64,000 bases of DNA. Origin: Leptasterias polaris (Eukaryota; Echinodermata; Asteroidea; Forcipulatida; Asteriidae). A program made the position numbers and the translations under genes. Below the pieces are notes generated by a model that was given only the letters and a program-made list of their open reading frames with translations, was not told where the DNA came from and searched no databases. The stretch lies in NCBI GenBank assembly GCA_037783415.1, contig JAZGTN010000058.1:5864001-5928000 (forward strand), written 5' to 3'. This document shows, piece after piece, positions 1,972 through 58,484 of this stretch. Each line of letters opens with the position of its first letter. The stretch's first letter is position 1.

Positions 1972-1979
1972 TTCTTACC
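1972..1979. other. left 8-bp target site duplication TTCTTACC
   Basis: TTCTTACC directly abuts the first base of the left terminal inverted repeat (A at 1980) and recurs directly after the last base of the right inverted repeat, at 33010-33017. An 8-bp duplication fits several superfamilies (MULE, KDZ/Zisupton, hAT, P). Confidence 0.9.
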
Positions 1980-2341
1980 ACCGAGCTGAAGCTAGCACAG
2001 TATTGGGCCCGAAATAGCCAGCCGCGTATTCCCGGAAAAAACCAGCCGCGTATTCAGAAAATAGAACACATGCAGTACAGGGAGGTGAACAAATGGCTCA
2101 TTTTTCTCATTTATAATGGTGAAATCGTTATTTTATCCGAACGAATACTAAAAAACAAGCCCAAAATTAGAGTTTTTCTCTCGATAATATTGAAATCATA
2201 TAACTATAGGTAAATGGAAAGCAATAAAAATTAAAAAATGTAATACATAAAATGTTAGAAAATAAGCCGCAAACACGGAGACAAATTGAGTGTATGCATA
2301 ATGTCATAATAGACGTTGTTTAATTTGAAAACACGTTTTGA
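1980..2341 (+). repeat. left unique terminal inverted repeat of the giant transposon
   Basis: About 362 bases mirrored by 32645-33009 with few differences (for example TTTATAATGG here against TTTCTAATGG in the right copy read in the same sense). Two direct copies of CCAGCCGCGTATTC lie 40-90 bases from the tip, separated by about 28 bases; they are candidate transposase-binding sites by position. No gene. Confidence 0.9.
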
Positions 2342-5300
2342 AAAGAATTTGTACCCTTCGTTATGAATATAAATACATTTTTTATTCCAGAATCTTAAAG
2401 ACTGATACCCTGGGCATATCAAATTTTTGAGCTGGCTAATTTCGGTCACTAATTAATGGTTAATTACCCACATCAATACAGACACCATTTGCCATAGGTA
2501 ACACGCACAAAAGCCTATACGGTTGAGTCAACTACCTCTGGTAAAGAATTTGTACCCTTCGTTATGAATATAAATACATTTTTTATTCCAGAATCTTAAA
2601 GACTGATACCCTGGGCATATCAAATTTTTGAGCTGGCCAATTTCGGTCACTAATTAGTGGTTAATTACCCAAATCAATACAGACACCATTTGCCATAGCT
2701 AACACGCACAAATGCCTATACGGTTGAGTCAACTACATCTTGTAAAGAATTTGTACCCTTCGTTATGAATATAAATACATTTTTTATTCCAGAATCCTAA
2801 AGACTGATACCCTGGGCATATCAAATTTTTGAGCTGGCCAATTTCGGTCACTAATTAGTGGTTAATTACCCAAATCAATACAGACACCATTTGCCATAGC
2901 TAACACGCACAAATGCCTATACGGTTGAGTCAACTACATCTTGTAAAGAATTTGTACCCTTCGTTATGAATATAAATACATTTTTTATTCCAGAATCTTA
3001 AAGACTGATACCCTGGGCATATCAAATTTTTGAGCTGGCCAATTTCGGTCACTAATTAGTGGTTAATTACCCAAATCAATACAGACACCATTTGCCATAG
3101 CTAACACGCACAAATGCCTATACGGTTGAGTCAACTACATCTTGTAAAGAATTTGTACCCTTCGTTATGAATATAAATTAATTTTTTAGTCCAGAATCTG
3201 AAAGACTGATACCCTGGGCATATCAAATTTTTGAGCTGGCCAATTTCGGTCACTAATTAGTGGTTAATTACCCAAATCAATACAGACACCATTTGCCATA
3301 GCTAACACGCACAAATGCCTATACGGTTGAGTCAACTACATCTTGTAAAGAATTTGTACCCTTCGTTATGGATATAAATTATTTGTTTAGTCCAGAATCT
3401 TAAAGACTTATACCCTGGGCATATCAAAATTTTGAGCTGGCCAATTTCGGTCACTAATTAGTGGTTAATTACCCAAATCAATATAGACACCATTTGCCAT
3501 AGCTAACACGCACAAATGCCTATACGGTTGAGTCAACTACCTCTGGTAAAGAATTTGTACCCTTCGTTATGAATATAAATTATTTTTTTAGTCCAGAATC
3601 TTAAAGACTGATACCCTGGGCATATCAAATTTTTGAGCTGGCCAATTTCGGTCACTAATTAGTGGTTAATTACCCAAATCAATACAGACACCATTTGCCA
3701 TAGCTAACACGCACAAATGCCTATACGGTTGAGTCAACTACATCTTGTAAAGAATTTGTACCCTTCGTTATGAATATAAATACATTTTTTATTCCAGAAT
3801 CCTAAAGACTGATACCCTGGGCATATCAAATTTTTGAGCTGGCCAATTTCGGTCACTAATTAGTGGTTAATTACCCAAATCAATACAGACACCATTTGCC
3901 ATAGCTAACACGCACAAATGCCTATACGGTTGAGTCAACTACATCTTGTAAAGAATTTGTACCCTTCGTTATGAATATAAATTAATTTTTTAGTCCAGAA
4001 TCTGAAAGACTGATACCCTGGGCATATCAAATTTTTGAGCTGGCCAATTTCGGTCACTAATTAGTGGTTAATTACCCAAATCAATACAGACACCATTTGC
4101 CATAGCTAACACGCACAAATGCCTATACGGTTGAGTCAACTACATCTTGTAAAGAATTTGTACCCTTCGTTATGGATATAAATTATTTTTTTAGTCCAGA
4201 ATCTTAAAGACTTATACCCTGGGCATATCAAATTTTTGAGCTGGCCAATTTCGGTCACTAATTAGTGGTTAATTACCCAAATCAATATAGACACCATTTG
4301 CCATAGCTAACACGCACAAATGCCTATACGGTTGAGTCAACTACCTCTGGTAAAGAATTTGTACCCTTCGTTATGAATATAAATTATTTTTTTAGTCCAG
4401 AATCTTAAAGACTGATACCCTGGGCATATCAAATTTTTGAGCTGGCCAATTTCGGTCACTAATTAGTGGTTAATTACCCAAATCAATACAGACACCCTTT
4501 GCCATAGGTAACACGCACAAATGCCTATACGGTTGAGTCAACTACCTCTGGTAAAGAATTTGTACCCTTCGTTATGAATATAAATTAATTTTTTAGTCCA
4601 GAATCTTAAAGACTTATACCCTGGGCATATCAAATTTTTGAGCTGGCCAATTTCGGTCACTAATTAGTGGTTAATTACCCAAATCAATATAGACACCATT
4701 TGCCATAGCTAACACGCACAAATGCCTATACGGTTGAGTCAACTACCTCTGGTAAAGAATTTGTACCCTTCGTTATGAATATAAATTAATTTTTTAGTCC
4801 AGAATCTTAAAGACTTATACCCTGGGCATATCAAATTTTTGAGCTGGCCAATTTCGGTAACTAATTAGTGGTTAATTACCCAAATCAATACAGACACCAT
4901 TTGCCATAGCTAACACGCACAAATGCCTATACGGTTGAGTCAACTACATCTTGTAAATAATTTGTACCCTTCGTTATGAATATAAATACATTTTTTATTC
5001 CAGAATCCTAAAGACTGATACCCTGGGCATATCAAATTTTTGAGCTGGCCAATTTCGGTCACTAATTAGTGGTTAATTACCCAAATCAATACAGACACCA
5101 TTTGCCATAGCTAACACGCACAAATGCCTATACGGTTGAGTCAACTACATCTTGTAAAGAATTTGTACCCTTCGTTATGGATATAAATTATTTTTTTAGT
5201 CCAGAATCTTAAAGACTTATACCCTGGGCATATCAAATTTTTGAGCTGGCCAATTTCGGTCACTAATTAGTGGTTAATTACCCAAATCAATATAGACACC

Positions 5301-6385
5301 ATTTGCCATAGCTAACACGCACAAATGCCTATACGGTTGAGTCAACTACCTCTGGTAAAGAATTTGTACCCTTCGTTATGAATATAAATTATTTTTTTAG
5401 TCCAGAATCTTAAAGACTGATACCCTGGGCATATCAAATTTTTGAGCTGGCCAATTTCGGTCACTAATTAGTGGTTAATTACCCAAATCAATACAGACAC
5501 CATTTGCCATAGCTAACACGCACAAATGCCTATACGGTTGAGTCAACTACCTCTGGTAAAGAATTTGTACCCTTCGTTATGAATATAAATACATTTTTTA
5601 TTCCAGAATCTTAAAGACTGATACCCTGGGCATATCAAATTTTTGAGCTGGCCAATTTCGGTCACTAATTAGTGGTTAATTACCCAAATCAATACAGACA
5701 CCATTTGCCATAGCTAACACGCACAAATGCCTATACGGTTGAGTCAACTACATCTTGTAAAGAATTTGTACCCTTCGTTATGAATATAAATACATTTTTT
5801 ATTCCAGAATCCTAAAGACTGATACCCTGGGCATATCAAATTTTTGAGCTGGCCAATTTCGGTCACTAATTAGTGGTTAATTACCCAAATCAATATAGAC
5901 ACCATTTGCCATAGCTAACACGCACAAATGCCTATACGGTTGAGTCAACTACCTCTGGTAAAGAATTTGTACCCTTCGTTATGAATATAAATTATTTTTT
6001 TAGTCCAGAATCTTAAAGACTGATACCCTGGGCATATCAAATTTTTGAGCTGGCCAATTTCGGTCACTAATTAGTGGTTAATTACCCAAATCAATATAGA
6101 CACCATTTGCCATAGCTAACACGCACAAATGCCTATACGGTTGAGTCAACTACATCTTGTAAAGAATTTGTACCCTTCGTTATGAATATAAAAACATTTT
6201 TTAGTCCAGAATCTGAAAGACTGATACCCTGGGCATATCAAATTTTTGAGCTGGCCAATTTCGGTAACTAATTAGTGGTTAATTACCCAAATCAATATAG
6301 ACACCATTTGCCATAGCTAACACGCACAAATGCCTATACGGTTGAGTCAACTACATCTTGTAAAGAATTTGTACCCTTCATTATG
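2341..6385 (+). repeat. left subterminal tandem array, ~201-bp unit, about 20 copies
   Basis: The marker GTTGAGTCAAC recurs about 20 times between roughly 2525 and 6340, average spacing about 201 bases. Each unit holds two dyad-symmetric motifs: the 12-base palindrome CACTAATTAGTG and GTTGAGTCAAC, which contains TGAGTCA, the AP-1 consensus. Variants (TACATTTTTTATTCC against TTATTTTTTTAGTCC; TTATGAATA against TTATGGATA) recur in blocks of four to five units, indicating higher-order repeats. The array ends in a degenerate unit before TTTATTTTGGG. No coding capacity. Confidence 0.93.
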
Positions 6386-7536
6386 AATAAAATTTATTTT
6401 GGGAAAGTTTTAAGTTCTTTGGGTGGAGGGCCCAGTTCCCCTCCCCCTTTTGAAAAGCTTCAGGGGCAGATCCAATATTTTCAAAACCGGGGATGGGGGT
6501 TGGGGGGGGAATGTCAGAGCAATAAATGTTGAAGGAAAGTCGTTGCGTCTGCGTTGTACTAGTGAGTCATTGAATCAGACATTCTTGAGTAAAACAAACT
6601 TACGAATACAATATTTATTCGTGGACAAAAACTAATTAGGCTATGGGTAATAAAACAAATCAATAAATTAACCCTTAAAAGGGTCTCTCGGTCAATTAGT
6701 TTTAATATTACATAAGAGGATTTGATTATAATGTAGCGTAAAATACGTTCCTGAGAACGATTCACTTCATGGGGCAAACGTGTGTTCTTTGGATTAAAAA
6801 AGGCGCATTTGGTGTTTCCAGCTGCCGATGTCGAAGCCGCCATTGATCTTGCAGCAGGGGATTAAAAACCGAAGATCGTAAAGCGCCGCTTGTACGTGTG
6901 GCGCTATAATATAAGATCTTTGGTTATACCGCTCTTCCTATTAACTGGTTTTACAATTGTGCATTGAGCGATTGTAACCAAATGTAATACATTTGCACGC
7001 ATTCACACACACAGACATTGTGTGGTACAATAACATACACGAATACGTTCAGTGTGTATTTTCAGTGGTGAGAAACTTGCTGTCCATTCACAGAATCACG
7101 TGTCATGGGAAGATATCTGTCAGTGAATTGATAGTGGTCCACAAGAGTAGGCCTACAGGTTGAAAATATATTTTTTTGCCCAAAAAACATAATAGATATG
7201 TAATTAATTTGCCTCTCCCGCACCCCCCCAATGTATCAGTCTCTTACTGTTGCTATGCAACCCCCCACCCCCTCCCCCCACGCAACACACTTCCTCCATG
7301 CACAAACCAACACAAAATTTACAAAGTTGACGCTGGACCGGATTTTGTCTCACGTGCACAAAGTTTATGGACGTGAGCACAAGTTTTCTTACTTGTCTGA
7401 GCTAATGTTTAGCTGATGTTCATTGGTTGTGACAGCAAGTAGGTCTACAAGTACAAGTACAACTTGTAACAAAACCCCATTTATAGTTCTAAAGTACAAA
7501 GTACTGTGCACAGATTTAATTTCAAATTCACGGACC
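6386..7536. other. 5' non-coding interior of the giant transposon, probable promoter region
   Basis: Between the left array and the proposed start of the transposase gene. It holds G-rich and C-rich runs (about 6480-6510 and 7220-7275). A minus-strand ORF (6843-6559) begins with an ATG in reasonable context and might be the first exon of a divergent gene, but no domain or clear donor site supports it. No recognisable core promoter element is claimed. Confidence 0.4.
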
Positions 7537-10500
7537 ATGAAAAGACATAGGTTTACATCTCTTGGTTCAGGCTATCGAGCTAAGGCAATCCGTTGGAAGG
7601 CAGGGATCACCGGAAAACAGAACAATGTTCGCCCACCAGCCTCAGTGGGTTGTATTCCGAAACCAGTGAGTATATTAAATTGTATCAAGTTTAAAGTTTC
7701 AAAACTTACATTTATTTCCTACTTCGGAACAGCTATTGTTTTCGTAGAGATTTTTATTATTTTTATTATTATTATTATTATTATTATTCTTTGTTTCTGA
7801 CCTAAATCCCATAGCATTTGTACCCGTTTTTTTCTTTATTTTTAATATCCTAAAGCGTTAATATGAAAGAGTTATGTCCTGTATCAAATTGAAGCTTAGT
7901 ACATGAACTTAACTCAAAATGTAATAAATGTAAACATTCTTAATTAGTTAGCTAATTACAGCGAGGTGAATATTTAATTAGCAAACTTTTTGACAGTAAT
8001 GGTTTATTATATTTTTTATATTCTACTTTTAAACATCTTTCCAACCATATTCATTTCAATTCACTTCATAACAAACGCTTTTTATAGGATAGTGGGATAG
8101 GTCCGGCCTTTCTTAAACCACGTGTTTCTTTTCCGTACAGACACAATTAGTTATTAAAATTTCAACGGTTAGAACTGTGTATTTTTAAACATGCACTTCA
8201 ACTTAGTTGAATATTTTGCTGTAGTAGTGGTTCATTAAGTGTACAATGGTTGCGGTGACTCGATTTGCAGTTACTTAAATAAAACTAATGAAACATAAAA
8301 TTATGAACATGTCGACGTCCTTTGGGCTTAATAAAAGTTAGGCAGAATAAACCATCACTGTCAAACGCAAATAGCGCCATCGAGGGATCCTCGAGTGAAT
8401 CCGTAATAACGGATTCTGAATCCGTAATAACGCATAGCGAATCCGTAATAACGGATTGCGAATCCGTAATAACGGATTATATTTCTTTTTTTGTGGCGCT
8501 AATGGGTTTTCGTACAATTCAGCCTTTGGCTGCGAAGTTTGAATGTTTTTAATAAACCAATAATAATAACTAGTATACTGTTGTCACATGATTATTACAT
8601 TAAATTTTATGATTTTCATTGTATTCATGACGGTTATTACATTTATGGTTGATTTTTATTACATTTATGGTTGCTTGAGTTTTTACATTTATGGTTGATT
8701 TTTATTACATTTATGGTTGATGGGTTTATTACATTTATTGTTGATTTTATAACATTGATGGTTGTTATTATATTTATGGTTGTTTTTATTACATTTATGG
8801 TTGTTATAGCATTTAAGGTTTTTATTACATAGGTGATACAGTACATGTGTTACTAAACGTAAAAAGATGTATGGTAGAGATCAAATTACTTGTATAGCTA
8901 ATTTCAACTGACCGTTGCCGCCCATATTTCAGGATCTCAATTTCTCAAATTTTCACCAATTTTACACTTAATTGTTTTCTTCTTGAAAGCCTTTTTTTTG
9001 TGGGTGGGGGGGTCAATGGATATATAATTTAAAGAATATCTACGCATAATTTTTCATTTTTTTTAAAATATAATTTTCGTTTAAGTGAAACAATTTTTTC
9101 TGCTAAGATTGTGACTGTATATGCGGACTCACAATGGAGGTCCATGGTCGAGGGACATGTGGACATGGAAGGAAGCTGCAGATTGGCAGTTAACTGCACG
9201 CCGGGTGCAGTTGTCAATGACATTCATGAAGTAAGTTTGATTCTTACTCCCTTTTTAATGCCAAAGAAATGTTTTAATTAATTTTATTATTTGTATTCTC
9301 AGTATAGAACCGCAGATTTACAAACTTGGACATAATATAAAAAACACCACTAGTACTAGTATTTCAGACATCCATTTTTCCATTAGCAATTTGGTCATGC
9401 AGTTTGAGCTTCCGATAATAAGATTTTAAAGAATGACAAAGGTGTTATTTGCTTTTTATGGATTGATTAGTGCATGACGCGATGATGATAATATATTTTG
9501 TTTTACAGGAATTCAGATTTAACCGTATGAAGGAAGAAACATCACTTGTAATATTTTCGGTTGGTACCAACGACATAACAAACTCCAAATGCACCTTCGA
9601 CAGTACATGTAAAGATGTTTGTGAGTTAGTGGACTCTGCAAGGAAGAAATACAGCGATTGCAAAGTAAGCATAATATGGGTGGTTTAGTTCTTTAAAATG
9701 TCATTATTCATCTCTTGTGTTGAATTCCTTTAAAATAAACCAGGTTTAACACCTTCCCCTTACCCCAACCAACCAACCAACCAACCAACGACCACAAATA
9801 TTGCCGTTCTCTCTGTTGTTTTTACTTTTTTATATGTTTTTGTTTCTTGCACGTAGTTCCGGCATTTTCCTTGGGCGCAATCAAAATCATTAAAACACAT
9901 CACCGCAAAGCGAGCTTAATAATAATATGAACCTAGGCCTATTGTCACATGGGTGGACCCGATGCACGATACAAAAATTCGGGCGATCGAAGTCACGCCC
10001 ATCCAGTTTGAAATTGTTAATGTTTAAATCACTCAAAATTACAGAGCCTCGGGTTCAGTCACAATTTGAAAATTTATGACCAAATAAATATTGTGATTTT
10101 ATTAGAAAATATGTAATAGGCTCCTATACTTTTTAAATAAATTATTTCTGTTATGTCTTAGGTTGCCATATTATCAATATTACCTCGATTAGACGAGCAT
10201 GCAAAGTCAGTTCGGAGATACAACAGTATGCTGCTTGATATTGTCAAACAAAAAGGCATATATTACATCGATGTGCACGATGAGTTCCAAGAAAGAAACC
10301 ACGAGTTATGGTGCAAGGACGGTCTACATCTCAGTGACACGGATGGTGCACCGTTGCTCATTCGGCTCGTTCATCGTGCACTACGGAGGATCATTTCTCC
10401 ACAACCACAAATTAATCAAAAAAGATCCCAAGCACCAACTGCCAGTCGCAAAAAAACCAAAGGTAGTGTGTCTTCACCCAGTGCAAACAAAAAAGGTTGA
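7537..10500 (+). CDS. transposase polyprotein gene, exons 1-4: SGNH/GDSL hydrolase domain
   Basis: Proposed exons are 7537-7665, 9108-9230, 9509-9664 and 10162-10462. The first three are all phase 0, each with a good donor (GTGAGT, GTAAGT, GTAAGC) and acceptor (CTAAG, TTTACAG, TCTTAG). The peptide has all SGNH blocks: Ser51 in YADSQW, Gly76 in CTPGAVV, Asn105 in VGTNDI, and Asp189/His192 in KDGLHLS. Block I has Ala-Asp-Ser instead of Gly-Asp-Ser. The fold predicts an esterase/lipase-type serine hydrolase; the substrate is unknown. If the donor at 10463 (AAAG/GTAGTG) is used, the frame continues in phase into exon 5 at 14981. If it is not, translation stops at TGA 10498-10500 and gives a 248-residue stand-alone hydrolase. 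ATG 7537 was chosen because it leads an exon with a strong donor; a further 5' exon is possible. Confidence 0.75.
8397..8478. repeat. tandem array of four 21-bp units, three forming perfect hairpins
   Basis: The unit is GAATCCGTAATAACGGATT plus two bases. AATCCGT and ACGGATT are perfect 7-base complementary arms around an AATA loop in units 1, 3 and 4. Unit 2 has ACGCATA and loses the pairing. It lies in intron 1 of the transposase gene. Confidence 0.85.
8638..8835. repeat. degenerate minisatellite (TTATTACATTTATGGTTG)n
   Basis: About ten imperfect copies of an 18-24 base AT-rich unit, in intron 1 of the transposase gene. The open frames across it are repeat artefacts. Confidence 0.8.
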
Positions 10501-10929
10501 TGCTTCGTTTATGTTATATAATAATCTTATAATTTTGTATTTCTCTTACATATTTAAAAATTATCAATATTATACTGATACAGAAGGGTTTTTAACTTAC
10601 GAATATAGTGTTCCCCAAAACATGATATTTAATCTTATTATGAATGCTACCATCTTATAATATAAAGTCGCATCTGAAGTAGGCCTATTGAGGGCGCTGT
10701 TCTGTAGCTGCCACTTCTATTTTCTCTGCCAGTGCTTGCTTATTTTTATCCGTTTTATCCTTGCTGAGTTTTTGGCATCGTCTTTTTATTTATTGTTGAC
10801 GTGTTTGGTAAGCTTTCTGTGCTTATTTGTGATATATTTTGGTGCTTTATCCGATAAGTATTGCTTGTTATTTTGATGTTTTTTGATGTGTTTTTTATCT
10901 CTGGTCGAGTTCACATTTTGTAATAACGT

Positions 10930-14496: not shown

Positions 14497-14980
14497 TGTG
14501 TCTTTCTTCTATGGTCACCTTGTCAGTTAGTTTAGATTTTTAGCATAAATAGGGTTAAAGGCGTCTGTCTCCTGAAAAGGTCAAAACATTACCGATGCCA
14601 GCAGGGATAGGCCTATGTAATAAGTACTATTAGTTCTCTGTTGGCGGGACAGACGTATCCCCATACTTTTGTTTGGGCGCTGGCCTGGTGACCAGTCTTT
14701 TTTCTTTGTCCTTTTCTTCCATTATGTGCTTTTTAACATGTGTTCTGCGCCTTTGATCATTTTGTATGTAAGGGGCGCAATATAAATTTTAAATATTATT
14801 ATTATTATTATTATTATTATCCCCCATAAAATAGTGGGGTTTTTAAACTGAAAGCATCACACACAGTCATGACCAAACATGCGTTGTTTGCTGATTTCAT
14901 AACAGAACAGAACAAAAGAAATGTTGCCAAACACTTATTAATCATAATTTTATTTTGTTGTTTGATTTGTTTTTCACTAG

Positions 14981-19086: not shown

Positions 19087-21480
19087 GAATCAACACATGA
19101 AATCAGAACAGGCGGAGGGAGGAGGAAACAAGGTGGTCCCAACTTGGCACGAAAGCTTGCCAAAATCTTGGTAGAAACACTAGAAGAATTCCCTTGGGAC
19201 AACAACAACATTTACCTTTCGGTAAAAACCTCAACTAGTTTACGTAAAAAGAGTAGGACAAGAAACTGCTCAAAAATGGTTAAAATATTGTGGAAAAATA
19301 ACCGTTTTGGTTTTAGGGAAGAGGTAAGAAAACTATTCAGCCAAAATTTTTTCAAAAATGTCAAAACAAACGGTTCAGAACCCAATGCCACTGTAACAAC
19401 ACCATCTCAATTGGTAAATTCTGAATCGACCGATTCTCAATCTGTTTCTTCTTACTCACAATCTTCTCAGTCGGCAGAGTCCCAATATATGCCATCTAAG
19501 TTGGCAAAACCCAAATCTGATCCATCTAAGTCGGCACAGCAAAAATCTGTGCCTTCTAAGTTGGCAAAACCCAAATCTGATCCATCTAAGTCGGCAAAAC
19601 CCAAATCTGATCCATCTAAGTCGGCACAGCCCAAATCTGTTCCATCCAAATCGGCACAGCCGGAATCTGATCCATCTAAGTCGGCACAGCCCAAATCTGA
19701 TCCATCTAAGTCGGCAAAACCAAAATCTGATCCATCTAAGTCGGCACAGCCCAAATCGGATCCATCTAAGTCGGCACAGCCCAAATCTGATCCATCTAAG
19801 TCGGCAAAACCAAAATCTGATCCATCTAAGTCGGCACAGCCCAAATCGGATCCATCTAAGTTGGCAAAACCCAAATCTGATCCATCTAAGTCGGCACAGC
19901 CCAAATCTGTGCATTCTAAGTTGGCAAAACCCAAATCTGATCCATCTAAGTCGGCAAAACCAAAATCTGATCCATCTAAGTCGGCACAGCCCAAATCGGA
20001 TCCATCTAAGTCGGCAAAACCCAAATCTGATCCATCTAAGTCGACACAGCCCAAATCGGAATCATTACAGTCCGTACAGCCCCAATATTTGCCTTCTAAG
20101 TCCGTAGAGACTCGTTCGTCACAAAGTGATGTGAAATCTAGCTCTCCAAAATCACTTGACGCTACAGGATTGCCAATATTGTACTGTGTTTGTCAGCAAC
20201 CCTATGACCAATCAAAGAGTATGATTGCCTGTGACAATTGCGACGAATGGTATCATTATAGCTGCATAAATTTGGATCCCAAATCGCGACGTCAGTCATA
20301 CCTAGGTGACTGTGTATTTGTTTGTGGTTTGAATGGCTGTAGCAAGGGGAAAAGAGTTTTTAAACACAGAGATATTAGTTCATCTTCAAATGAAAATGAG
20401 GATGAAAACCTTCAGAGATCACACCTTCCATCTGAACAAAGTAATTGTTTTTCAAAAGTATCACAATGGATGAGTGCAACCTGCGAAGACCTGTCTCTAA
20501 CTAAAGATTTACTTTCAATATCCTCTGATGATGAATTTTTGTATAACGACGTATTGCATAATACAAACAAACACGTCCCCCGTGCATTGTCCGAAATATC
20601 ATCTATATCGATTGTTGATCAGTACCACATGGCAGATAGGTCAATAAAATCTTTTTCAAATGGGATACCTGATGACCAATCGCTGCATAGTAATTTCGAA
20701 ACAAGATCAAACATTTTGCCAGAGGAAATTATAATGGGTATGTGTACAAAGAATGAATCTAATCTACACATACATAGCACATTTTATTGGACAATAAAAC
20801 TGCCAGATATCAACAAATGTATTTTTTATGTAGATCGATCCGATTGGGACAATCTTAAGAAAAATCAAAAACAAAATTCACTTCCAAGATCCTGGGTAAA
20901 TGTTTTCAGTAAAGGATTGAGTGAAATACACCCTTATTGTTCATTTCAGTTTAGAAGACACTATGTTTCCTCACATTTGAGTCGAAAGAATTCAAAATAT
21001 GCTTTCAGCGCTACTGGGTATTGTAATTTTAAAAACTGTAGTGTAACATTTAAAATGACAATGCATTCAGAGAGTGACTTGAAAATAAACGTTTTATTTA
21101 GGGGGAAAGTAAGACACCAGAAGAACGAACGGCGAGGGAGATATGTACGAAATACAAAGAGGGACGCCTTAAAGAAATTATTAACTCACAAAAAGCCAAG
21201 ACGGGAACATCTAGACAACCTGAAATTGTTGAGTGATCAACAATTTATGTCAGGCTGTCGAAATGATGCCCCAAAGAAACATGTTTTGCACAAGATATCG
21301 AGCGAGGCTAAACAGTTGTCAAACTCATATGAAAGTGAAATACAAGGCCTTTTAAAGATTTTCAATAAGCAATCTGATTCAGAGAGGCAGATTTCAGGGA
21401 TTTTAAGGTATGTCTCTTTGATTCCACCCTCAGTTATACTTTTCTCTGAAGACAGCATTAGGATTTATCACTACATGTCC
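19087..21480 (+). CDS. transposase polyprotein gene, exon 8 first part: Ser-Pro-Lys repeats, PHD finger, N-terminal transposase region
   Basis: Begins at an acceptor (GTGCTGCAG/GAA) in phase with exon 7 and covers predicted residues 381-1178. Residues about 512-719 are a low-complexity array of a 10-residue unit, SAQPKSDPSK or SAKPKSDPSK, encoded by a 30-bp repeat. Residues about 742-800 are a PHD finger (CVCQQPYDQ, CDNCDEWYHYSC, then Cys pairs); PHD fingers bind histone H3 tails, so this may guide integration or chromatin binding. Residues about 900-1060 hold RSDWDNLKK, FRRHYVS and a Cys-containing NSKYAFSATGYCNF segment, probably DNA-binding. The frame meets the 472-bp insertion after codon TCC (21478-21480) and then runs into a stop at 21553-21555. 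Confidence 0.85.
19490..20103 (+). repeat. 30-bp coding minisatellite (Ser-Pro-Lys repeats)
   Basis: About twenty copies of a 30-base unit of the type CCATCTAAGTCGGCACAGCC, encoding a 10-residue Ser/Pro/Lys repeat. Units differ mainly by AAAC/ACAG and TCTGAT/TCGGAT. Length is a multiple of three, so copy-number change keeps the frame. Probably a flexible basic linker. Confidence 0.92.
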
Positions 21481-21952
21481 AACCCTGCGAGAAGCGAGGG
21501 GTTTCCGATTTGCTCCGAGGAACGAGGGGGCTCACGCGGTAGGCGCATTATGTAATTAGTGAAATTGACACATGAAACAGCCACAGGGTGAAAATAAGCA
21601 GTAACCAGGTCACCTAGATATACCCTGAGGGTATTTCTGGGTCATGATTGTAAACAAACAGCTCTGGTTTCCATTCACAGACATATGACAGAGAGCGTGT
21701 ATTGGTACTGTCGGGCCAATTTTGTACACAAGGGAATATTTTGTACACAAGGGAATGGGCGGACCCACTTTGTGACAGCTGGCCTACCCGGTAAACGACC
21801 TCTAGGGCAAAATCGGTTCTACCACTTTGTTCAGGGGTGTTCAGGGTTGGATGAAAATTAAGTTCAGCGAAAAAAAAATTAACATATTTTTTTAATTAAC
21901 AAAAATAGAAAAGTGAGCCTACCGCTTGAGGCCATTCGCTTCTCGCAGGGTT
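21481..21952. mobile_element. 472-bp MITE-like element disrupting the transposase exon
   Basis: The left end AACCCTGCGAGAAGCGA is mirrored exactly by TCGCTTCTCGCAGGGTT at 21936-21952, and GCGGTAGGC and CTCAC near the left end have counterparts near the right. No coding capacity. Removing 473 bases (21481-21953) makes the upstream frame continue into the downstream open frame, just before the DATG transposase motif. The target duplication is unclear: TTAA follows a CCC...GGG core on the right, as in piggyBac-like MITEs, but the left side reads CCAA. Confidence 0.78.
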
Positions 21953-21953
21953 A

Positions 21954-24900
21954 AGAGATATAATTTATTTCGATGCAACGGGTTCAGTTATACGTAATAA
22001 ATCAACATTTTCAAGGTTTAAAAAGTATCAGTTATATGACCTAGTAATTCGACATCCAGTTAAGGGATCCCCTCCATTCGTTATTGCATCTTTATTAACA
22101 ACGGATCACAGTGCTGTATCAATTTCACATTTTTTGCACACTTTTTTACATTCTGAGCAGCGTCTGTATGGTCACAATGGCGTAAAGGAACCTTTAATGA
22201 TTATGATTGACGGTAGTTCAACATTACTACTCTCCATTTTGAAGGTTTTTACTTGTGAAACAGTTCTAGAATATATACAGCGGTGCTACAGAATTGTAAC
22301 GGGTTCAGCCAAAGATAATGACTTAAAAAAGACAATAATTCATTGCTGTGCAAGCCATCATATGAAAAATGCTTCCAAGATGTGCAGGAAGTACTACAAG
22401 CAAAATTTCCGCGAGGGAATGTACTGGGTAGGCTTGCTTCTATTATCAAGCAGCTTGAGCGATATCGATGAAATTGTGGAATCTTTGACAATACTTACAC
22501 ATTCTAAAGTAAATACTGATCTTGTGAGAACCCATTACCATAAATTAAAATGTAAAGTAGAACACGTAAATGAAACTACACCAGAAAACAGCTTATTTGA
22601 TGGACAGTTCGAAGAAGATGATGATAGATCTGATTATTGTGCTCAGTTTGTAGCTGAAGATGAACACTTGAATATAACTCAGGCCGAGTACATTTCAAAA
22701 TCTCCAAATTCACCATTTAAAATTCATTTCCAAAAGGTAGTTAACAGTGCTGTAGGTAAGGTTAACAGACATAACATGCTTTGTACAGATACTTCAGAAT
22801 TAAACAATAACGCATATTTTGGTAAGGAGTTTATGAATTATTTACTTGATTTTTCGTTGCCAAATATACCAAACTGGTCATCACTTATGATAAACGATTT
22901 AGGTAGACATGGTGTTACTGATGTATATAACCAATACACAAACATGTACAAATCACTCAGTAGGTCTAAATTTCAAAATATCACCACAAACAATCGCACA
23001 CAAGGAATAGTCGAAAAAAGTATGGAAGAGGTAAAGAGGACAAAGTTAGATAACAAAAGGTGTCTAAAACTTGACGACTTTGTTCTCATTTTTGAGCGTG
23101 ATAAGCTGCCCCTACAAAGAGAATTTTGTGAAGCTTTTTGCAAGACAAAAAAGAGGAAACTTCCCTCTAAAACGCTAGAATTAACGAGTGAAATATGGAA
23201 CAAGCGTGTACGGACAAGTACCCCTACCAATCAAGGGGTGTACTTGACACCGCCAGCAAAAGGGCTAGAGTTTAAAGAGAAGCCTAAAAAGGATCGCAAA
23301 AGCGCAGTCACAAACAAAGGGGACAGCACACAAGCGCCACGTGCCACAACCATCAAACAAAATACACATGACCACACAGGCAAACAAACTTTCACTTCCG
23401 CAGCTCAGTCACCTTCATTGGTACCAATGATGAGGGGCATTTCCAATAATAGAGTATCGTGTTGGTGGATAGCTACTATTCAAGCTGTAAGACCATTCAT
23501 ACCTCAAGCAAAGTTAACCAATTCAAAATTTCAAGGCAGTGACGTTTTTCTTTGGCGAAATTTAGTAAAACTGTTTCATACTTTAGAAGTAGACACATCC
23601 ACACCGATCCCATTTCACATCGTTCAACCAATTATAAAGGAATCTTCGTTGCAAATGAACATTAACTGTAATGAGCAGCAGGATGCAGCAGAGTTTTATT
23701 TACAATTAATTGTGCCATTTCTCAGTGAATCATGTCTCACTACAAAGCTAGAATTATGTAAGAGTGTGAAGTGCCTTAACTGTAATCAAACTTCTGTAGT
23801 TGAAAATTCCACATGTGGTGTATTATCTGTCGCTGTCAAACAAACATGTCTGGAAGAATGTTTACAACATTACTTCAAAGAAGAAACCATCAGTGATGTT
23901 GATTGCAGCCTTTGTAATAAAAAATGCACCAAAAAAACAATATGTCATATAGTGAATTGTCCTTCACTTTTAGTTGTCCAATTGCTAAGATTCGATGCTG
24001 TTAGAGGACATCAAACAAAGATTTCAACAAACATCACACCAAATATATCAATTAATTTATCTAAATTTTGTGTAAACAACACACCTGCAGTATACCATTT
24101 GCGTTCGGTTATTGTCCACGAGGGCAGTTCGTTGGAAAGTGGTCATTACAAAACACACATCATTGATTCGTTGGACTCGACCATCATAGAGTTTAACGAT
24201 GCCTTTGTTCAACAAGAAAGTGGTTTGAGTTTCAACAACAAAGTATCTGAGATGGGATATCTTTTTTTCTACGAAAAACAAGATTCAAAGACACCGTTGA
24301 CTGACCTTGATCCAAAAAGCAACGAAAATCATTTTAGAGTTGGTACAAATGAAGAAAAATTTGTCCGTCTTCTTTGGGCTTCCTGCGATGAAAAAAACAT
24401 GCACAGCGTCGCTTTGCGGGAAGAACGAACGAAGGATTTTCTGTCTTTTCACCAACTGGCAATGATTAATGGCATCCCTAAACAATCCGTTCGGAAAAGA
24501 TTAAAATGTATCTACACAAACTACCGCTGTGGTTGGTTAAGCGATTTCTTGGTTGATTTCTATATCACACAGTTGTGTGAATTGGTAAATGAAGAAATCA
24601 AAACTAGAAAGTTTGCAGCTTTACAGTGTAATTTAACTGCAGAAATTCTTAATGAGCAATCGTCAACCACATCATTCATATCAGTATCTAAAAGGTGTTT
24701 TACTACTGGTAAATTTTGCGAAATCATGTTTTTCCCCCTGTTGGAGAACAGACACTTCACACTCTATGTCATTGATAATAACCGAAAAAATATTATTTGC
24801 TTGGATTCAATGAGTTCTACTCGAGACACTCGTCGTAAAATGGTAGTACATGGACGGGCCTTCTTTGATTTTTTCCAAAATGGTTTGAAGAATAGATACT

Positions 24901-25160
24901 GGAATATAATGCCAAACGCTTTGGAAGGCAAACAAAAGGTCGAAATTAAACAAGCCTCGTGCGTGCAACAAACGGATTCAGAAAGTTGTGGTGTCTTTTG
25001 CTGTATCTTCGCTGAACAAGTATGTTTCCCACATAGACAACTTTTACCAACAAGTACTGCGGAAAACCTCAGAATTTACATCCTACTACAGTTAATAAAA
25101 AGATCACTCATCGTTGACCCTGAATTGCAACGGCTGTTTGTTTCCTATGTACATTATTAA
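21954..25160 (+). CDS. transposase polyprotein gene, exon 8 second part: RNase-H-fold transposase, USP peptidase, Ulp1 peptidase
   Basis: An open frame of 1068 codons (predicted residues 1179-2246). The transposase core has a first acidic motif IIYFDATGSV (Asp1185), a second MIMIDGSS (Asp1264) and a CCASHH motif (Cys1309/His1313), the layout of MULE/KDZ-type transposases; the final Glu is not assigned with confidence. Residues about 1665-1955 are a USP/C19 deubiquitinase fold: Cys1681 in VSCWWIA, CLNC and CSLC zinc-binding pairs, His1909 in SGHYKTH, then FNDAFV. Residues about 2040-2200 are an Ulp1/C48 peptidase with His2112 (NRHFTLY), Asp2129 (CLDSM), Gln2184 and Cys2190 (SESCGVF). All catalytic residues look intact. 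No ATG lies at the break; this is the 3' part of the exon split by the 472-bp insertion. Confidence 0.9.
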   Translation, partial: RDIIYFDATGSVIRNKSTFSRFKKYQLYDLVIRHPVKGSPPFVIASLLTTDHSAVSISHFLHTFLHSEQRLYGHNGVKEPLMIMIDGSSTLLLSILKVFTCETVLEYIQRCYRIVTGSAKDNDLKKTIIHCCASHHMKNASKMCRKYYKQNFREGMYWVGLLLLSSSLSDIDEIVESLTILTHSKVNTDLVRTHYHKLKCKVEHVNETTPENSLFDGQFEEDDDRSDYCAQFVAEDEHLNITQAEYISKSPNSPFKIHFQKVVNSAVGKVNRHNMLCTDTSELNNNAYFGKEFMNYLLDFSLPNIPNWSSLMINDLGRHGVTDVYNQYTNMYKSLSRSKFQNITTNNRTQGIVEKSMEEVKRTKLDNKRCLKLDDFVLIFERDKLPLQREFCEAFCKTKKRKLPSKTLELTSEIWNKRVRTSTPTNQGVYLTPPAKGLEFKEKPKKDRKSAVTNKGDSTQAPRATTIKQNTHDHTGKQTFTSAAQSPSLVPMMRGISNNRVSCWWIATIQAVRPFIPQAKLTNSKFQGSDVFLWRNLVKLFHTLEVDTSTPIPFHIVQPIIKESSLQMNINCNEQQDAAEFYLQLIVPFLSESCLTTKLELCKSVKCLNCNQTSVVENSTCGVLSVAVKQTCLEECLQHYFKEETISDVDCSLCNKKCTKKTICHIVNCPSLLVVQLLRFDAVRGHQTKISTNITPNISINLSKFCVNNTPAVYHLRSVIVHEGSSLESGHYKTHIIDSLDSTIIEFNDAFVQQESGLSFNNKVSEMGYLFFYEKQDSKTPLTDLDPKSNENHFRVGTNEEKFVRLLWASCDEKNMHSVALREERTKDFLSFHQLAMINGIPKQSVRKRLKCIYTNYRCGWLSDFLVDFYITQLCELVNEEIKTRKFAALQCNLTAEILNEQSSTTSFISVSKRCFTTGKFCEIMFFPLLENRHFTLYVIDNNRKNIICLDSMSSTRDTRRKMVVHGRAFFDFFQNGLKNRYWNIMPNALEGKQKVEIKQASCVQQTDSESCGVFCCIFAEQVCFPHRQLLPTSTAENLRIYILLQLIKRSLIVDPELQRLFVSYVHY

Positions 25161-27112
25161 CATTCAATAGCAAACCATTTTTACAGGTATTCCGTGTCGA
25201 CTTTGCTCCATTTAACAGTTGTTAAAAAAATTATGGGGATAAATATTCGAGCAATGTTGTATTTGGCGGGTAAATTATTAGTTAAACTTTTAAGTGTACG
25301 ACCTAGTCACTCAATTGTGTACTAAGTAAAATGTCTTAAATGTGTGTGCTTTGGTAATGCTGAACAAATATGACATTACACTGAATACCCCGGCACGGAT
25401 TATTCGTGAACAAAAATAGTAATACAGCTTTATATGAGCGTCGTGTATGCAGAAAAAACAAACGGTTCATCGGAATTTTCCCCAAAACAGAAACATCAAA
25501 TTAATCGCAGGTAGTTTTATGATGTGTCATTTAAAAATGTTATATAATAATGCGCCATGGCTACAAGGTATTCCGTGTGGCATAAGATTTTCAGAAAAAG
25601 CAAAATAGTATATACAAATATTGATGTCAGCTAAAATAATAAATCTGTCACTTCGTTTTCACGTGTATTGGAATTCAAACCGGGTTTTTGTCTTGAAATG
25701 GTTTTTTCACAGACTGTTTATTGTGACAAATTATATATATAATAATAATAATAATTATTATAAAGTATATACAGCTTTCCAACCATTTTAAAATAAATTG
25801 GCAGACCTTCTCTTTTTAAAAAAATCACTGGTAAAAGACCAAAATATTTGAAGCCATGCTTGATTGATTATGGAAACCTCGTTCGCTAAAGGAAAAATAG
25901 TAACAGTTTGTTTTCTACAAGTAACAAACTAAACTTCTCTGTTATCGCTACTCCAAACTTTCGTGCACGTACACGATGACGTATAGTGTATTTGGGACAC
26001 GATTAGTTATCTGGTACGTACATGATAAGAGAGAGATATTTTTGGTTTGAACGTGCTGGGAATACGCCTCCGTTGATTTTTAATCTTAAACTGTAGAGAA
26101 TTTTAAATGTAATTTGCATACCGTTTCTTTGTAAATATGTATAAAACAACAATTGTGAGACGTGCTTGATTAGTTATTGAAAAAACGCTTTATGAAACAT
26201 TCTGTGAAAGTTTTTTTGGAAAAGTTAAGGGAAAAGTTACAAGGAACGTACACTGAAATTTATCGTGTATTTGGGACACGATAAGTTGTCTTGTACGTAC
26301 ACGAAAGAGTGATGGGACTCTTTTTGGTAATTAACATTGTGACGATACATTTATGTAGTATTTGTAATCTAAAACGTTGAAGAGTTTTTAAATGTTATTT
26401 ACATACCGTTTCTTTGTCAATATGTATAAAACAACAATTGTGAGATGTGCTTGATTAGTTATTAAACCACGCATTTATAAATGGGTTGCAGAATATTCCT
26501 CTATTATGATTTTCAGAAAGGTCACTTGATGTCAAGTTTTGACCAAAAATGTCATACACACAGAGAAAGTATTCTGTTTGATAAACTCACTTGTCTGTTA
26601 ACAACAAAGATTAAGAAAAGAATATTTTACTTTTGTACAAAGTTTTATTTTTAAAATGGATATTAAAGGGTGTAAATGGATATTCATTTTTTTATTTATT
26701 GTTCTGTGTACAAAGCACTAAATCGGTTAGTAATGATGATACGAAAAGCAAACATCCAGAAAAGTTACTCGAAAGTGATGACATAAGTTGGCATTTATCA
26801 TTATCTTGATACAAAGATAAATTGGAAATAAATACACAATGACTAATTGTCATTTTTACATATTCATTTCTACCATGTGCTATTGATTTTCATACTTATT
26901 TTCCAGAATTTAAATAACATTCATGACGTTTAAATATTCTTGATTACTTGTCATTTGTATGCGTTGTTCTGAAAAGTTGATCAATAACCTTTTCCTAATT
27001 TTGTTTGGGAATAAACAAAGTGGTAACAACAGTTTTTGATCACGGAAAGATTTTCATTTTATTGCCGCATTTGTGCGATAGGAGAAAATTGCGCCTGTAT
27101 AACTGTGGCTAA
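25161..27112. other. 3' non-coding interior of the giant transposon
   Basis: AT-rich, no gene recognised on either strand. It contains a partial tandem duplication (about 25855-26475) and an ATAATAATA microsatellite near 25740. Confidence 0.6.
25855..26475. repeat. two-unit tandem duplication of ~285 bp with hairpin motif
   Basis: GTGTATTTGGGACACGAT occurs near 25987 and 26266, followed in both by TACGTACA. CATACCGTTTCTTTGT and AAAACAACAATTGTGAGA recur near 26118 and 26402, then GTGCTTGATTAGTTATT. In the second unit TCGTGT and ACACGA form a small hairpin around ATTTGGG. No function assigned. Confidence 0.75.
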
Positions 27113-30100
27113 TTAGCGACAAAATAGCCAGCTAAAAAATTTGATATGCCCAGGGTATAAGTCTTTAAGATTATGGACTAAAACATGTATTTATATTCAT
27201 AACGAAGGGTACAAATTCTTTACCAGAGGTAGTTGACTCAACCGTATAGGCATTTGTGCGTGTTAGCTATGGCAAATGGTGTCTATATTTATTTGGGTAA
27301 TTAACCACTAATTAGTGACCGAAATTGGCCAGCTCAAAAATTTGATATGCCCAGGGTATAAGTCTTTAGGATTCTGGACTAAAAAATTAATTTATATTCA
27401 TAACGAAGGGTACAAATTCTTTACAATATGTAGTTGACTCAACCGTATAGGCATTTGTGCGTGTTAGCTATGGCAAATGGTGTCTATATTGATTTGGGTA
27501 ATTAACCACTAATTAGTTACCGAAATTGGCCAGCTCAAAAATTTGATATGCCCAGGGTATAAGTCTTTAAGATTCTGGACTAAAAAATTAATTTATATTC
27601 ATAACGAAGGGTACAAATTCTTTACCAGAGGTAGTTGACTCAACCGTATAGGCATTTGTGCGTGTTAGCTATGGCAAATGGTGTCTGTATTGATTTGGGT
27701 AATTAACCACTAATTAGTGACCGAAATTGGCCAGCTCAAAAATTTGATATGCCCAGGGTATCAGTCTTTAGGATTCTGGAATAAAAAATGTATTTATATT
27801 CATAACGAAGGGTACAAATTCTTTACAAGATGTAGTTGACTCAACCGTATAGGCATTTGTGCGTGTTAGCTATGGCAAATGGTGTCTGTATTGATTTGGG
27901 TAATTAACCACTAATTAGTGACCGAAATTGGCCAGCTCAAAAATTTGATATGCCCAGGGTATCAGTCTTTAAGATTCTGGACTAAAAAAATAATTTATAT
28001 TCATAACGAAGGGTACAAATTCTTTACCAGAGGTAGTTGACTCAACCGTATAGGCATTTGTGCGTGTTACCTATGGCAAATGGTGTCTATATTGATTTGG
28101 GTAATTAACCACTAATTAGTGACCGAAATTGGCCAGCTCAAAAATTTGATATGCCCAGGGTATAAGTCTTTAAGATTCTGGACTAAAAAAATAATTTATA
28201 TCCATAACGAAGGGTACAAATTCTTTACAAGATGTAGTTGACTCAACCGTATAGGCATTTGTGCGTGTTAGCTATGGCAAATGGTGTCTATATTGATTTG
28301 GGTAATTAACCACTAATTAGTTACCGAAATTGGCCAGCTCAAAAATTTGATATGCCCAGGGTATAAGTCTTTAAGATTCTGGACTAAAAAATTAATTTAT
28401 ATTCATAACGAAGGGTACAAATTCTTTACCAGAGGTAGTTGACTCAACCGTATAGGCATTTGTGCGTGTTACCTATGGCAAAGGGTGTCTGTATTGATTT
28501 GGGTAATTAACCACTAATTAGTGACCGAAATTGGCCAGCTCAAAAATTTGATATGCCCAGGGTATCAGTCTTTCAGATTCTGGACTAAAAAATTAATTTA
28601 TATTCATAACGAAGGGTACAAATTCTTTACAAGATGTAGTTGACTCAACCGTATAGGCATTTGTGCGTGTTAGCTATGGCAAATGGTGTCTGTATTGATT
28701 TGGGTAATTAACCACTAATTAGTGACCGAAATTGGCCAGCTCAAAAATTTGATATGCCCAGGGTATAAGTCTTTAGGATTCTGGACTAAAAAATGTATTT
28801 ATATTCATAACGAAGGGTACAAATTCTTTACAATATGTAGTTGACTCAACCGTATAGGCATTTGTGCGTGTTAGCTATGGCAAATGGTGTCTATATTGAT
28901 TTGGGTAATTAACCACTAATTAGTTACCGAAATTGGCCAGCTCAAAAATTTGATATGCCCAGGGTATAAGTCTTTAAGATTCTGGACTAAAAAATTAATT
29001 TATATTCATAACGAAGGGTACAAATTCTTTACCAGAGGTAGTTGACTCAACCGTATAGGCATTTGTGCGTGTTAGCTATGGCAAATGGTGTCTGTATTGA
29101 TTTGGGTAATTAACCACTAATTAGTGACCGAAATTGGCCAGCTCAAAAATTTGATATGCCCAGGGTATAAGTCTTTAAGATTCTGGACTAAAAAATTAAT
29201 TTATATTCATAACGAAGGGTACAAATTCTTTACCAGAGGTAGTTGACTCAACCGTATAGGCATTTGTGCGTGTTACCTATGGCAAAGGGTGTCTGTATTG
29301 ATTTGGGTAATTAACCACTAATTAGTGACCGAAATTGGCCAGCTCAAAAATTTGATATGCCCAGGGTATCAGTCTTTCAGATTCTGGACTAAAAAATTAA
29401 TTTATATTCATAACGAAGGGTACAAATTCTTTACAAGATGTAGTTGACTCAACCGTATAGGCATTTGTGCGTGTTAGCTATGGCAAATGGTGTCTGTATT
29501 GATTTGGGTAATTAACCACTAATTAGTGACCGAAATTGGCCAGCTCAAAAATTTGATATGCCCAGGGTATCAGTCTTTAAGATTCTGGACTAAAAAAATA
29601 ATTTATATTCATAACGAAGGGTACAAATTCTTTACCAGAGGTAGTTGACTCAACCGTATAGGCATTTGTGCGTGTTACCTATGGCAAATGGTGTCTATAT
29701 TGATTTGGGTAATTAACCACTAATTAGTGACCGAAATTGGCCAGCTCAAAAATTTGATATGCCCAGGGTATAAGTCTTTAAGATTCTGGACTAAAAAAAT
29801 AATTTATATCCATAACGAAGGGTACAAATTCTTTACAAGATGTAGTTGACTCAACCGTATAGGCATTTGTGCGTGTTAGCTATGGCAAATGGTGTCTGTA
29901 TTGATTTGGGTAATTAACCACTAATTAGTGACCGAAATTGGCCAGCTCAAAAATTTGATATGCCCAGGGTATCAGTCTTTAGGATTCTGGAATAAAAAAT
30001 GTATTTATATTCATAACGAAGGGTACAAATTCTTTACAAGATGTAGTTGACTCAACCGTATAGGCATTTGTGCGTGTTAGCTATGGCAAATGGTGTCTGT

Positions 30101-32645
30101 ATTGATTTGGGTAATTAACCACTAATTAGTGACCGAAATTGGCCAGCTCAAAAATTTGATATGCCCAGGGTATCAGTCTTTAAGATTCTGGAATAAAAAA
30201 TGTATTTATATTCATAACGAAGGGTACAAATTCTTTACCAGAGGTAGTTGACTCAACTGTATAGGCATTTGTGCGTGTTAGCTATGGCAAATGGTGTCTA
30301 TATTGATTTGGGTAATTAACCACTAATTAGTGACCGAAATTGGCCAGCTCAAAAATTTGATATGCCCAGGGTATAAGTCTTTAAGATTCTGGACTAAAAA
30401 ATTAATTTATATTCATAACGAAGGGTACAAATTCTTTACCAGAGGTAGTTGACTCAACCGTATAGGCATTTGTGCGTGTTACCTATGGCAAATGGTGTCT
30501 ATATTGATTTGGGTAATTAACCACTAATTAGTGACCGAAATTGGCCAGCTCAAAAATTTGATATGCCCAGGGTATCAGTCTTTAAGATTCTGGACTAAAA
30601 AAATAATTTATATTCATAACGAAGGGTACAAATTCTTTACCAGAGGTAGTTGACTCAACCGTATAGGCATTTGTGCGTGTTAGCTATGGCAAATGGTGTC
30701 TATATTGATTTGGGTAATTAACCACTAATTAGTGACCGAAATTGGCCAGCTCAAAAATTTGATATGCCCAGGGTATAAGTCTTTAAGATTCTGGACTAAA
30801 AAAATAATTTATATCCATAACGAAGGGTACAAATTCTTTACAAGATGTAGTTGACTCAACCGTATAGGCATTTGTGCGTGTTAGCTATGGCAAATGGTGT
30901 CTGTATTGATTTGGGTAATTAACCACTAATTAGTGACCGAAATTGGCCAGCTCAAAAATTTGATATGCCCAGGGTATCAGTCTTTAGGATTCTGGAATAA
31001 AAAATGTATTTATATTCATAACGAAGGGTACAAATTCTTTACAAGATGTAGTTGACTCAACCGTATAGGCATTTGTGCGTGTTAGCTATGGCAAATGGTG
31101 TCTGTATTGATTTGGGTAATTAACCACTAATTAGTGACCGAAATTGGCCAGCTCAAAAATTTGATATGCCCAGGGTATCAGTCTTTAAGATTCTGGAATA
31201 AAAAATGTATTTATATTCATAACGAAGGGTACAAATTCTTTACCAGAGGTAGTTGACTCAACCGTATAGGCTTTTGTGCGTGTTAGCTATGGCAAATGGT
31301 GTCTATATTGATTTGGGTAATTAACCACTAATTAGTTACCGAAATTGGCCAGCTCAAAAATTTGATATGCCCAGGGTATAAGTCTTTAAGATTCTGGACT
31401 AAAAAATTAATTTATATTCATAACGAAGGGTACAAATTCTTTACCAGAGGTAGTTGACTCAACCGTATAGGCATTTGTGCGTGTTACCTATGGCAAAGGG
31501 TGTCTGTATTGATTTGGGTAATTAACCACTAATTAGTGACCGAAATTGGCCAGCTCAAAAATTTGATATGCCCAGGGTATCAGTCTTTAAGATTCTGGAC
31601 TAAAAAAATAATTTATATTCATAACGAAGGGTACAAATTCTTTACCAGAGGTAGTTGACTCAACCGTATAGGCATTTGTGCGTGTTAGCTATGGCAAATG
31701 GTGTCTATATTGATTTGGGTAATTAACCACTAATTAGTGACCGAAATTGGCCAGCTCAAAAATTTGATATGCCCAGGGTATAAGTCTTTAAGATTCTGGA
31801 CTAAAAAAATAATTTATATCCATAACGAAGGGTACAAATTCTTTACAAGATGTAGTTGACTCAACCGTATAGGCATTTGTGCGTGTTAGCTATGGCAAAT
31901 GGTGTCTGTATTGATTTGGGTAATTAACCACTAATTAGTGACCGAAATTGGCCAGCTCAAAAATTTGATATGCCCAGGGTATCAGTCTTTCAGATTCTGG
32001 ACTAAAAAATTAATTTATATTCATAACGAAGGGTACAAATTCTTTACAAGATGTAGTTGACTCAACCGTATAGGCATTTGTGCGTGTTAGCTATGGCAAA
32101 TGGTGTCTGTATTGATTTGGGTAATTAACCACTAATTAGTGACCGAAATTGGCCAGCTCAAAAATTTGATATGCCCAGGGTATCAGTCTTTAGGATTCTG
32201 GAATAAAAAATGTATTTATATTCATAACGAAGGGTACAAATTCTTTACAAGATGTAGTTGACTCAACCGTATAGGCATTTGTGCGTGTTAGCTATGGCAA
32301 ATGGTGTCTGTATTGATTTGGGTAATTAACCACTAATTAGTGACCGAAATTGGCCAGCTCAAAAATTTGATATGCCCAGGGTATCAGTCTTTAAGATTCT
32401 GGAATAAAAAATGTATTTATATTCATAACGAAGGGTACAAATTCTTTACCAGAGGTAGTTGACTCAACCGTATAGGCTTTTGTGCGTGTTACCTATGGCA
32501 AATGGTGTCTGTATTGATGTGGGTAATTAACCACTAATTAGTGACCGAAATTAGCCAGCTCAAAATTTGATATGCCCAGGGTATCAGTCTTTAAGATTCT
32601 GGAATAAAAAATGTATTTATATTCATAACGAAGGGTACAAATTCT
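27113..32645 (-). repeat. right subterminal tandem array, ~201-bp unit, about 27 copies
   Basis: The same unit as the left array in opposite orientation: GTTGACTCAAC recurs about every 201 bases from about 27230 to 32460. Higher-order structure is visible: the variant TTATATCCATAACG is found near 28196, 29804, 30808 and 31810, the last intervals being about five units. The inner edge starts with a degenerate unit (ACAAAATAGCCAGCTAAAAA). It is longer than the left array by about seven units, so the arrays evolve in length after insertion. Confidence 0.93.
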
Positions 32646-33009
32646 TTTCAAAACGCGTTTTCAAATTAAACAACGTCTATTATGACATTATGCATACACT
32701 CAATTTGTCTCCGTGTTTGCGGCTTATTTTCTAACATTTTATGTATTACATTTTTTAATTTTTATTGCTTTCCATTTACCTATAGTTATATGATTTCAAT
32801 ATTATCGAGAGAAAAACTCTAATTTTGGGCTTGTTTTTTAGTATTCGTTCGGATAAAATAACGATTTCACCATTAGAAATGAGAAAAATGAGCCATTTGT
32901 TCACCTCCCTGTACTGCATGTGTTCTATTTTCTGAATACGCGGCTGGTTTTTTCCGGGAATACGCGGCTGGCTATTTCGGGCCCAATACTGTGCTAGCTT
33001 CAGCTCGGT
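32645..33009 (-). repeat. right unique terminal inverted repeat of the giant transposon
   Basis: Mirrors 1980-2341 nearly base for base, ending in CTTCAGCTCGGT at 33009. It includes both copies of the GAATACGCGGCTGG motif. Confidence 0.9.
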
Positions 33010-33017
33010 TTCTTACC
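33010..33017. other. right 8-bp target site duplication TTCTTACC
   Basis: Identical to 1972-1979. The pre-insertion site would read CTTCTTACCGTTTGCATG. Confidence 0.9.
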
Positions 33018-44850: not shown

Positions 44851-44954
44851 TTGCATTACTCAAGGGTACTATGTAACTGTTTTAACAATTTTTATCAACA
44901 AAAGCTGCACACTTTAAAACTAAAATCAGCAGTTTTTAAAGAGTCACACCATAG

Positions 44955-46325: not shown

Positions 46326-46334
46326 TGTAGGGGT

Positions 46335-46640
46335 GCTGATTCACCCCCCATTCCATAGGGGTGTTGACTCACACCATTCCATAGGGGTGTTGACTCCCCC
46401 CATTCCATAGGGGTGTTGACTCCCCCCATTCCATAGGGGTGTTGACTCCCCCCATTCCATAGGGGTGTTGACTCCCCCCATTCCATAGGGGTGTTGACTC
46501 CCCCCATTCCATAGGGGTGTTGACTTCCCCCATTCCATAGGGGTGTTGACTCACACCATTCTATAGGGGTGTTGACTCCCCCCATTCCTTAGGGGTGTTC
46601 ATTTACCCCATTTCATAGGGGTGTTGACTCACCCCATTGG
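46335..46640. repeat. 26-bp minisatellite, about eleven copies
   Basis: The unit is CCATTCCATAGGGGTGTTGA plus CTCCCC. Central copies are nearly identical and edge copies diverge (CTCACA, CATTTACC). The open frames on the minus strand are repeat artefacts. Confidence 0.93.
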
Positions 46641-58459: not shown

Positions 58460-58484
58460 CTGTTGACAAAAAAATATCATATCA

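Follow-up and report, generated by a model that had tools for sequence, protein, structure and literature searches.

A 31-kb Foldback-type transposon, probably Mutator-like, with satellite-built ends and a PHD, USP and Ulp1 gene in the sea star Leptasterias polaris

The window analysed here, a 64,000-nucleotide stretch of the Leptasterias polaris genome (assembly GCA_037783415.1, contig JAZGTN010000058.1, forward-strand positions 5,864,001 to 5,928,000), contains an element of 31,030 bp at 1980-33009 that is flanked on both sides by TTCTTACC and whose tips are ACCGAGCTGAAGCT and its reverse complement. Inside terminal inverted repeats (TIRs), each made of a unique outer segment and an array of 201-bp satellite units, lies a gene whose predicted product joins a transposase-like core to a PHD finger and two protease domains. 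We propose that this is probably a Foldback-type cut-and-paste transposon that bears a gene and belongs to the Mutator-like (MULE/Rehavkus) kind. Its parts, with strand where one applies, are:

1972..1979: left target site duplication (TSD), TTCTTACC, read directly
1980..2342, plus strand: left unique TIR, 363 bp, preceding the first satellite unit
2343..6400, plus strand: left array of 201-bp units, 20 complete and one partial (period-201 span 2338-6400, 20.2 copies)
6395..6631, plus strand: left inner segment common to gene-less copies, 97% to copy C160
19018..21555, plus strand: first long open frame of the element gene, with 30-amino-acid tandem repeats (DNA array 19465-20086)
20185..20295, plus strand: PHD finger (PF00628, E 3.4e-07, above cut-off)
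20800..21123, plus strand: WRKY-like beta fold, residues 51-158 of protein P0015
21483..21950: 468-bp segment interrupting the frame, with 15-bp inverted ends CCCTGCGAGAAGCGA
21951..23250, plus strand: DDE/RNase H-like transposase core, from predicted structure
23436..24272, plus strand: USP (C19) protease domain (PF00443, E 1.8e-22; aligned to USP46)
24603..25073, plus strand: Ulp1 (C48) protease domain (PF02902, E 1.9e-10; aligned to SENP1)
25400..27218, plus strand: right inner segments common to gene-less copies, ~97% to C160
27109..32646, minus strand: right array of 201-bp units, 27 complete and one degenerate (period-201 span 27109-32651, 27.6 copies)
32647..33009, minus strand: right unique TIR
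33010..33017: right TSD, TTCTTACC, read directly

The unique TIR arms show 2 mismatches in 362 bases compared, and the two arrays have 96-98% complementarity along as much as 4,068 bp. Together the arrays make up ~9.6 kb of the 31 kb, and a nested long interspersed nuclear element (LINE) makes up at least 3.6 kb. Counted from the tip, many left (L) and right (R) units match in order with 0 differences (L1=R1, L2=R2, L4=R3 and L7-L10=R2-R5), and both window tips carry a common variant that is missing from 28 other tips in the genome. The simplest reading is that unequal exchange took place inside the arrays and that sequence was copied from one arm to the other. Such copying is not universal, since elsewhere 0-5 bases separate the two tips of a copy. 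A 9-bp TSD at the window was rejected because the ninth base is mismatched in the registers read. The original prediction of a single DNA transposon with an 8-bp target duplication keeps its coordinates, with the same 8 bp on either side, and the satellite-built inverted ends that it described correspond to the inverted period-201 arrays found behind the TIRs.

A single large multi-domain gene had also been predicted, and its PHD, WRKY-like, DDE-like, USP and Ulp1 parts were all found, with the frame of the gene stopping at 25160. On the basis of its modelled fold, the WRKY-like domain is a probable DNA-binding domain; Foldseek placed a ketosteroid isomerase first for this upstream domain (E 0.099) and WRKY domains next. 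The 468-bp segment may be a nested miniature inverted-repeat transposable element (MITE) or an intron. The top structural match of the core is the bacterial transposase ISCth4 of the IS256 family, which is without PHD or protease domains; the match is modest, with 12% identity over 204 aligned residues. Upstream of the gene, a 90-aa frame (18006-18278, plus strand) shows a C2H2-like pattern by eye and has no Pfam match; it is perhaps an earlier exon.

Relatives of the element protein, drawn from the best ~8,000 candidates, occur in fish, a tunicate and rotifers. Among 21 members of this set, some truncated and the window entered as its core alone, Pfam modules comprise PHD in 6, USP in 5 and Ulp1 in 3. 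Three members (P0005, P0008 and P0019) have the PHD finger at their front, two others (P0006 and P0011) at their end; P0006 also has a Macro domain, and P0021 carries its USP at the C-terminal end. PF10551 appears in 1 of the 21 members (E 0.041, below cut-off) and not in the window core, and NCBIfam yielded no transposase for the 21 members, its strong matches being ADP-ribose-binding/Macro and AAA models in single members. A PDB profile search with A1 returned USP18 chains only. No eukaryotic MULE appears in the fold lists, an absence that counts neither for nor against the assignment.

Further copies are present in the assembly (629,726,417 bases, 334 contigs). A 362-bp tip query gave 391 first-look candidates, of which 40 were scored; all 40 span 362/362 bases at 98-100% identity, and they comprise the window's own two tips, 14 inverted pairs (28 tips) located on other contigs, and 10 single tips. 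The original prediction had set copies ending elsewhere as a check on its boundaries, and all 14 further pairs keep the same 14 tip bases at the same place. A perfect 8-bp TSD flanks 9 of the 14 (C9, C45, C59, C133, C154, C160, C188, C3 and C40) and, with the window, 10 of 15 pairs, and those ten duplications all differ from each other; imperfect TSDs match at 7/8 bases in C140 and at 6/8 in C6 and C64. The further copies range in length from 2,243 to 28,571 bp, and the 15 copies, window included, have 3 to 28 array units per side. That relatives with the same ends span 2.2-28.6 kb indicates that the size of the element is no freak of a single locus, and the 14 further tip pairs rule out a one-off or artefactual structure. 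Within the DNA of these loci, the 100-bp flanks of the 14 pairs match their own places alone, and the left flank of the window has one weak match, 90 bp at 75.6%, to the flank of locus L045. Two copies, C70 (G000:C70:2916370-2933066) and C140 (G000:C140:1422064-1438760), are both 16,697 bp long, with units distributed 19/19 and 24/14 to equal totals. An interior flipped relative to the tips was considered for C133 and rejected, since its tip variants are swapped as well and the entire copy therefore lies in the opposite orientation.

These copies appear to be gene-less derivatives. Neither of the element's two coding frames has a match in any of the 14 (tblastn, >60 aa, E 1e-5 or better). A common interior, with a core of ~8.7-8.9 kb and in some cases further inserts, is present in 12 of the 14, and C3 and C40 are hardly more than arrays. 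The interiors are up to 99.8% identical, which suggests that a gene-less line spread recently, presumably using transposase from elsewhere. In C160, the copy in which the deletion was mapped, the counterpart of 6632-25399 (18.8 kb including the gene) is absent, at a short sequence present on both edges, and we infer that the gene was lost in C160, not gained in the window. At one of its inner ends C160 has ~1.6 kb for which the window offers no equivalent, so this history is incompletely explained. C160 also carries a piggyBac-type insertion with PF13843 frames, located in a TTAA that corresponds to 25787-25792, where the window has no insert; its transposase frames and a THAP domain match lie at L047:5545-7324 (minus strand) and L047:3755-4093 (plus strand). 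An extra insert in C59 holds a 522-aa frame with C2H2-type matches (L055:6857-8425, minus strand).

Assignment to the Mutator-like kind is suggested by the architecture of the ends together with the PHD finger. MULE TSDs measure 8-11 bp (PMC6446971), a range that includes the 8 bp of 10 of our 15 pairs, and the long TIRs of the MULE type are present as 363 bp plus arrays. Rehavkus is described in the same source as having a PHD finger, TIRs of 26-400 bp, a terminal satellite and a 9-bp TSD. The element shares the finger, the TIR length class and satellite arrays in its termini, but its TSD is 8 bp at the window and exactly 8 bp in 9 of 14 other pairs. It is also about three times larger than Rehavkus-1_TC of Tribolium, which is 9.5 kb with a 164-bp unit in its inverted termini (PMC10218199), and the accessible text on Rehavkus mentions no USP or Ulp1. 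The element is perhaps related to Rehavkus, given the likeness in the described ends and the PHD finger. The original prediction that it matches no described family finds no support, since Rehavkus has satellites in inverted termini with a PHD-bearing transposase and Foldback-type TIRs have tandem repeats, which are present here in variable number.

Two Foldback-type systems resemble the element in having an outer tip followed by variable-number tandem repeats inside the TIRs, and both were proposed to be Mutator-like: Tetris of D. virilis, with TSDs of 8-10 bp, and Tm1 of root-knot nematodes, with TSDs of mostly 9. In the passages seen, Tetris differs in being without coding capacity, Tm1 has repeats of 13-15 bp and a transposase of 496 aa, and protease domains are mentioned for neither. 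Foldback elements such as Tetris are known, in those accounts, without their transposase. Sea-urchin TU elements were considered as a possible relative, and the literature search led to Tetris only. Protease fusions have their own precedents: the portion of PMC2836005 consulted reports Ulp1 in Mutator elements of hydra, lancelet and plants, and either Ulp1/PHD or OTU in Ginger1. These resemble our element in fusing a transposase to Ulp1, at times with PHD, whereas Ginger1 is 2.6-7.1 kb with a Gypsy-type integrase core, satellite ends are not mentioned there for either group, and USP (C19) is mentioned solely with another transposase, in Trichomonas. As to size, excerpts of the literature give Pack-MULEs of one survey as no more than 7 kb (giant-transposon review, PMC6431247) and arthropod MULEs as 1.4-10.0 kb. 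PHD, USP and Ulp1 together in a satellite-ended element were not found in the literature searched, Repbase and most subscription journals lying outside that search. Rehavkus is already known to combine satellite-built inverted ends with PHD, and ends of this design are a hallmark of Foldback elements; new are the size, the coding core within foldback ends and the combination of PHD, USP and Ulp1.

Several results weigh against this assignment. Foldseek returned no match reaching E 0.001 for the models of the core and the upstream domain, VIA gives 7-8 as the typical best Z of models that have no clear match, and the core model is weak (pLDDT under 60) near the first and third acidic residues. 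The window core piece matches 0 Pfam families. The frame is broken at 21483-21950, so the window copy may be inactive, and no other gene-bearing copy is known among the 14 compared. No TSD was found in 2 of the 14 further pairs (C17 and C70), and no empty site was found among the window and copy loci compared.

A different role for the protease domains is that they cleave the large protein of the element itself into functional pieces, by analogy with the related adenovirus protease, and do not act on host marks. The single long multi-domain product and a weak match of the Ulp1 region to the Adenovirus endoprotease (PF00770, E 0.021, below cut-off) would suit such self-processing; PF00443, however, is a ubiquitin hydrolase family, no cleavage sites are known, and the domains are shuffled or lost across relatives, all of which make it unlikely. 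Membership in the hAT or P superfamily, the latter with foldback forms such as Galileo, is unlikely: ISCth4 outranks Hermes in both aligners, if barely past the tie margin, and neither family is among the Pfam matches listed. A place on the KDZ/Zisupton side rather than the MULE side would account for the TSD, which has the 8-bp length given for Zisupton in PMC12730594, but we regard it as very unlikely, since no KDZ model occurs in the 25 Pfam families matched by 11 members or in the best 25 of 33 for the 21 members, and satellite ends with a PHD finger indicate Rehavkus. That the pair of ends arose in assembly or from two separate insertions is scarcely credible: long near-identical inverted arrays are difficult to assemble and the analysis used the assembly alone, but the same 8 bp flank either side, the tip variant is confined to both window tips, and nine other pairs have the same layout with perfect TSDs.

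Other features lie inside and beyond the foldback element. Within it, the nested LINE comprises:

10162-10500, plus strand: weak SGNH-like match before the LINE frame, below the curated cut-off
10927-14496, plus strand: LINE frame with endonuclease and reverse transcriptase (1,189 aa)

The LINE perhaps starts at 10162. An inverted 295-bp pair, 85% alike, also lies inside (15209-15502 and 16432-16723). Outside are tandem arrays at 38989-40856 (475 bp), 41813-42264 (130 bp), 44953-45724 (84 bp) and 46328-46638 (26 bp), and a Helitron-type frame of 3,530 aa (47924-58516, minus strand) with matches to Helitron_like_N, PIF1 helicase, endonuclease, PHD, OTU and Herpes_teg_N (tegument-type deubiquitinase). 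It is a second element in the window, unrelated to the foldback element.

In a working model of transposition, the WRKY-like domain would bind the tip and might also recognise recurring sites within the 201-bp arrays, and the DDE core would pair and cut the ends and join them to staggered target DNA, creating 8-bp duplications. The PHD finger might keep the complex on chromatin, with USP and Ulp1 stripping ubiquitin and SUMO from silencing or repair proteins or from the transposase itself. Arrays would expand and contract through unequal exchange and inter-arm copying, and gene-less copies, born by internal deletion, would be mobilised by transposase made elsewhere.

The element protein combines a transposase with a histone-reader finger and deubiquitinase-type and deSUMOylase-type domains. 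The parallel with the Helitron-type frame fits the idea that ubiquitin and SUMO handling recurs in animal transposons, which was raised before for Ginger and Helitron elements (Ginger: PMC2836005). With ends, gene and recent gene-less derivatives in one genome, array function and movement in trans are testable. A bolder and less likely reading is that the element represents an undescribed, animal-wide DDE lineage beside MULE and Rehavkus. In it, shuffled PHD, USP and Ulp1 domains joined to the transposase (with Macro in one fish relative) would undo host SUMO and ubiquitin marks, and the arrays would offer the transposase many binding sites, a platform by which very large elements could move and seed satellite DNA.
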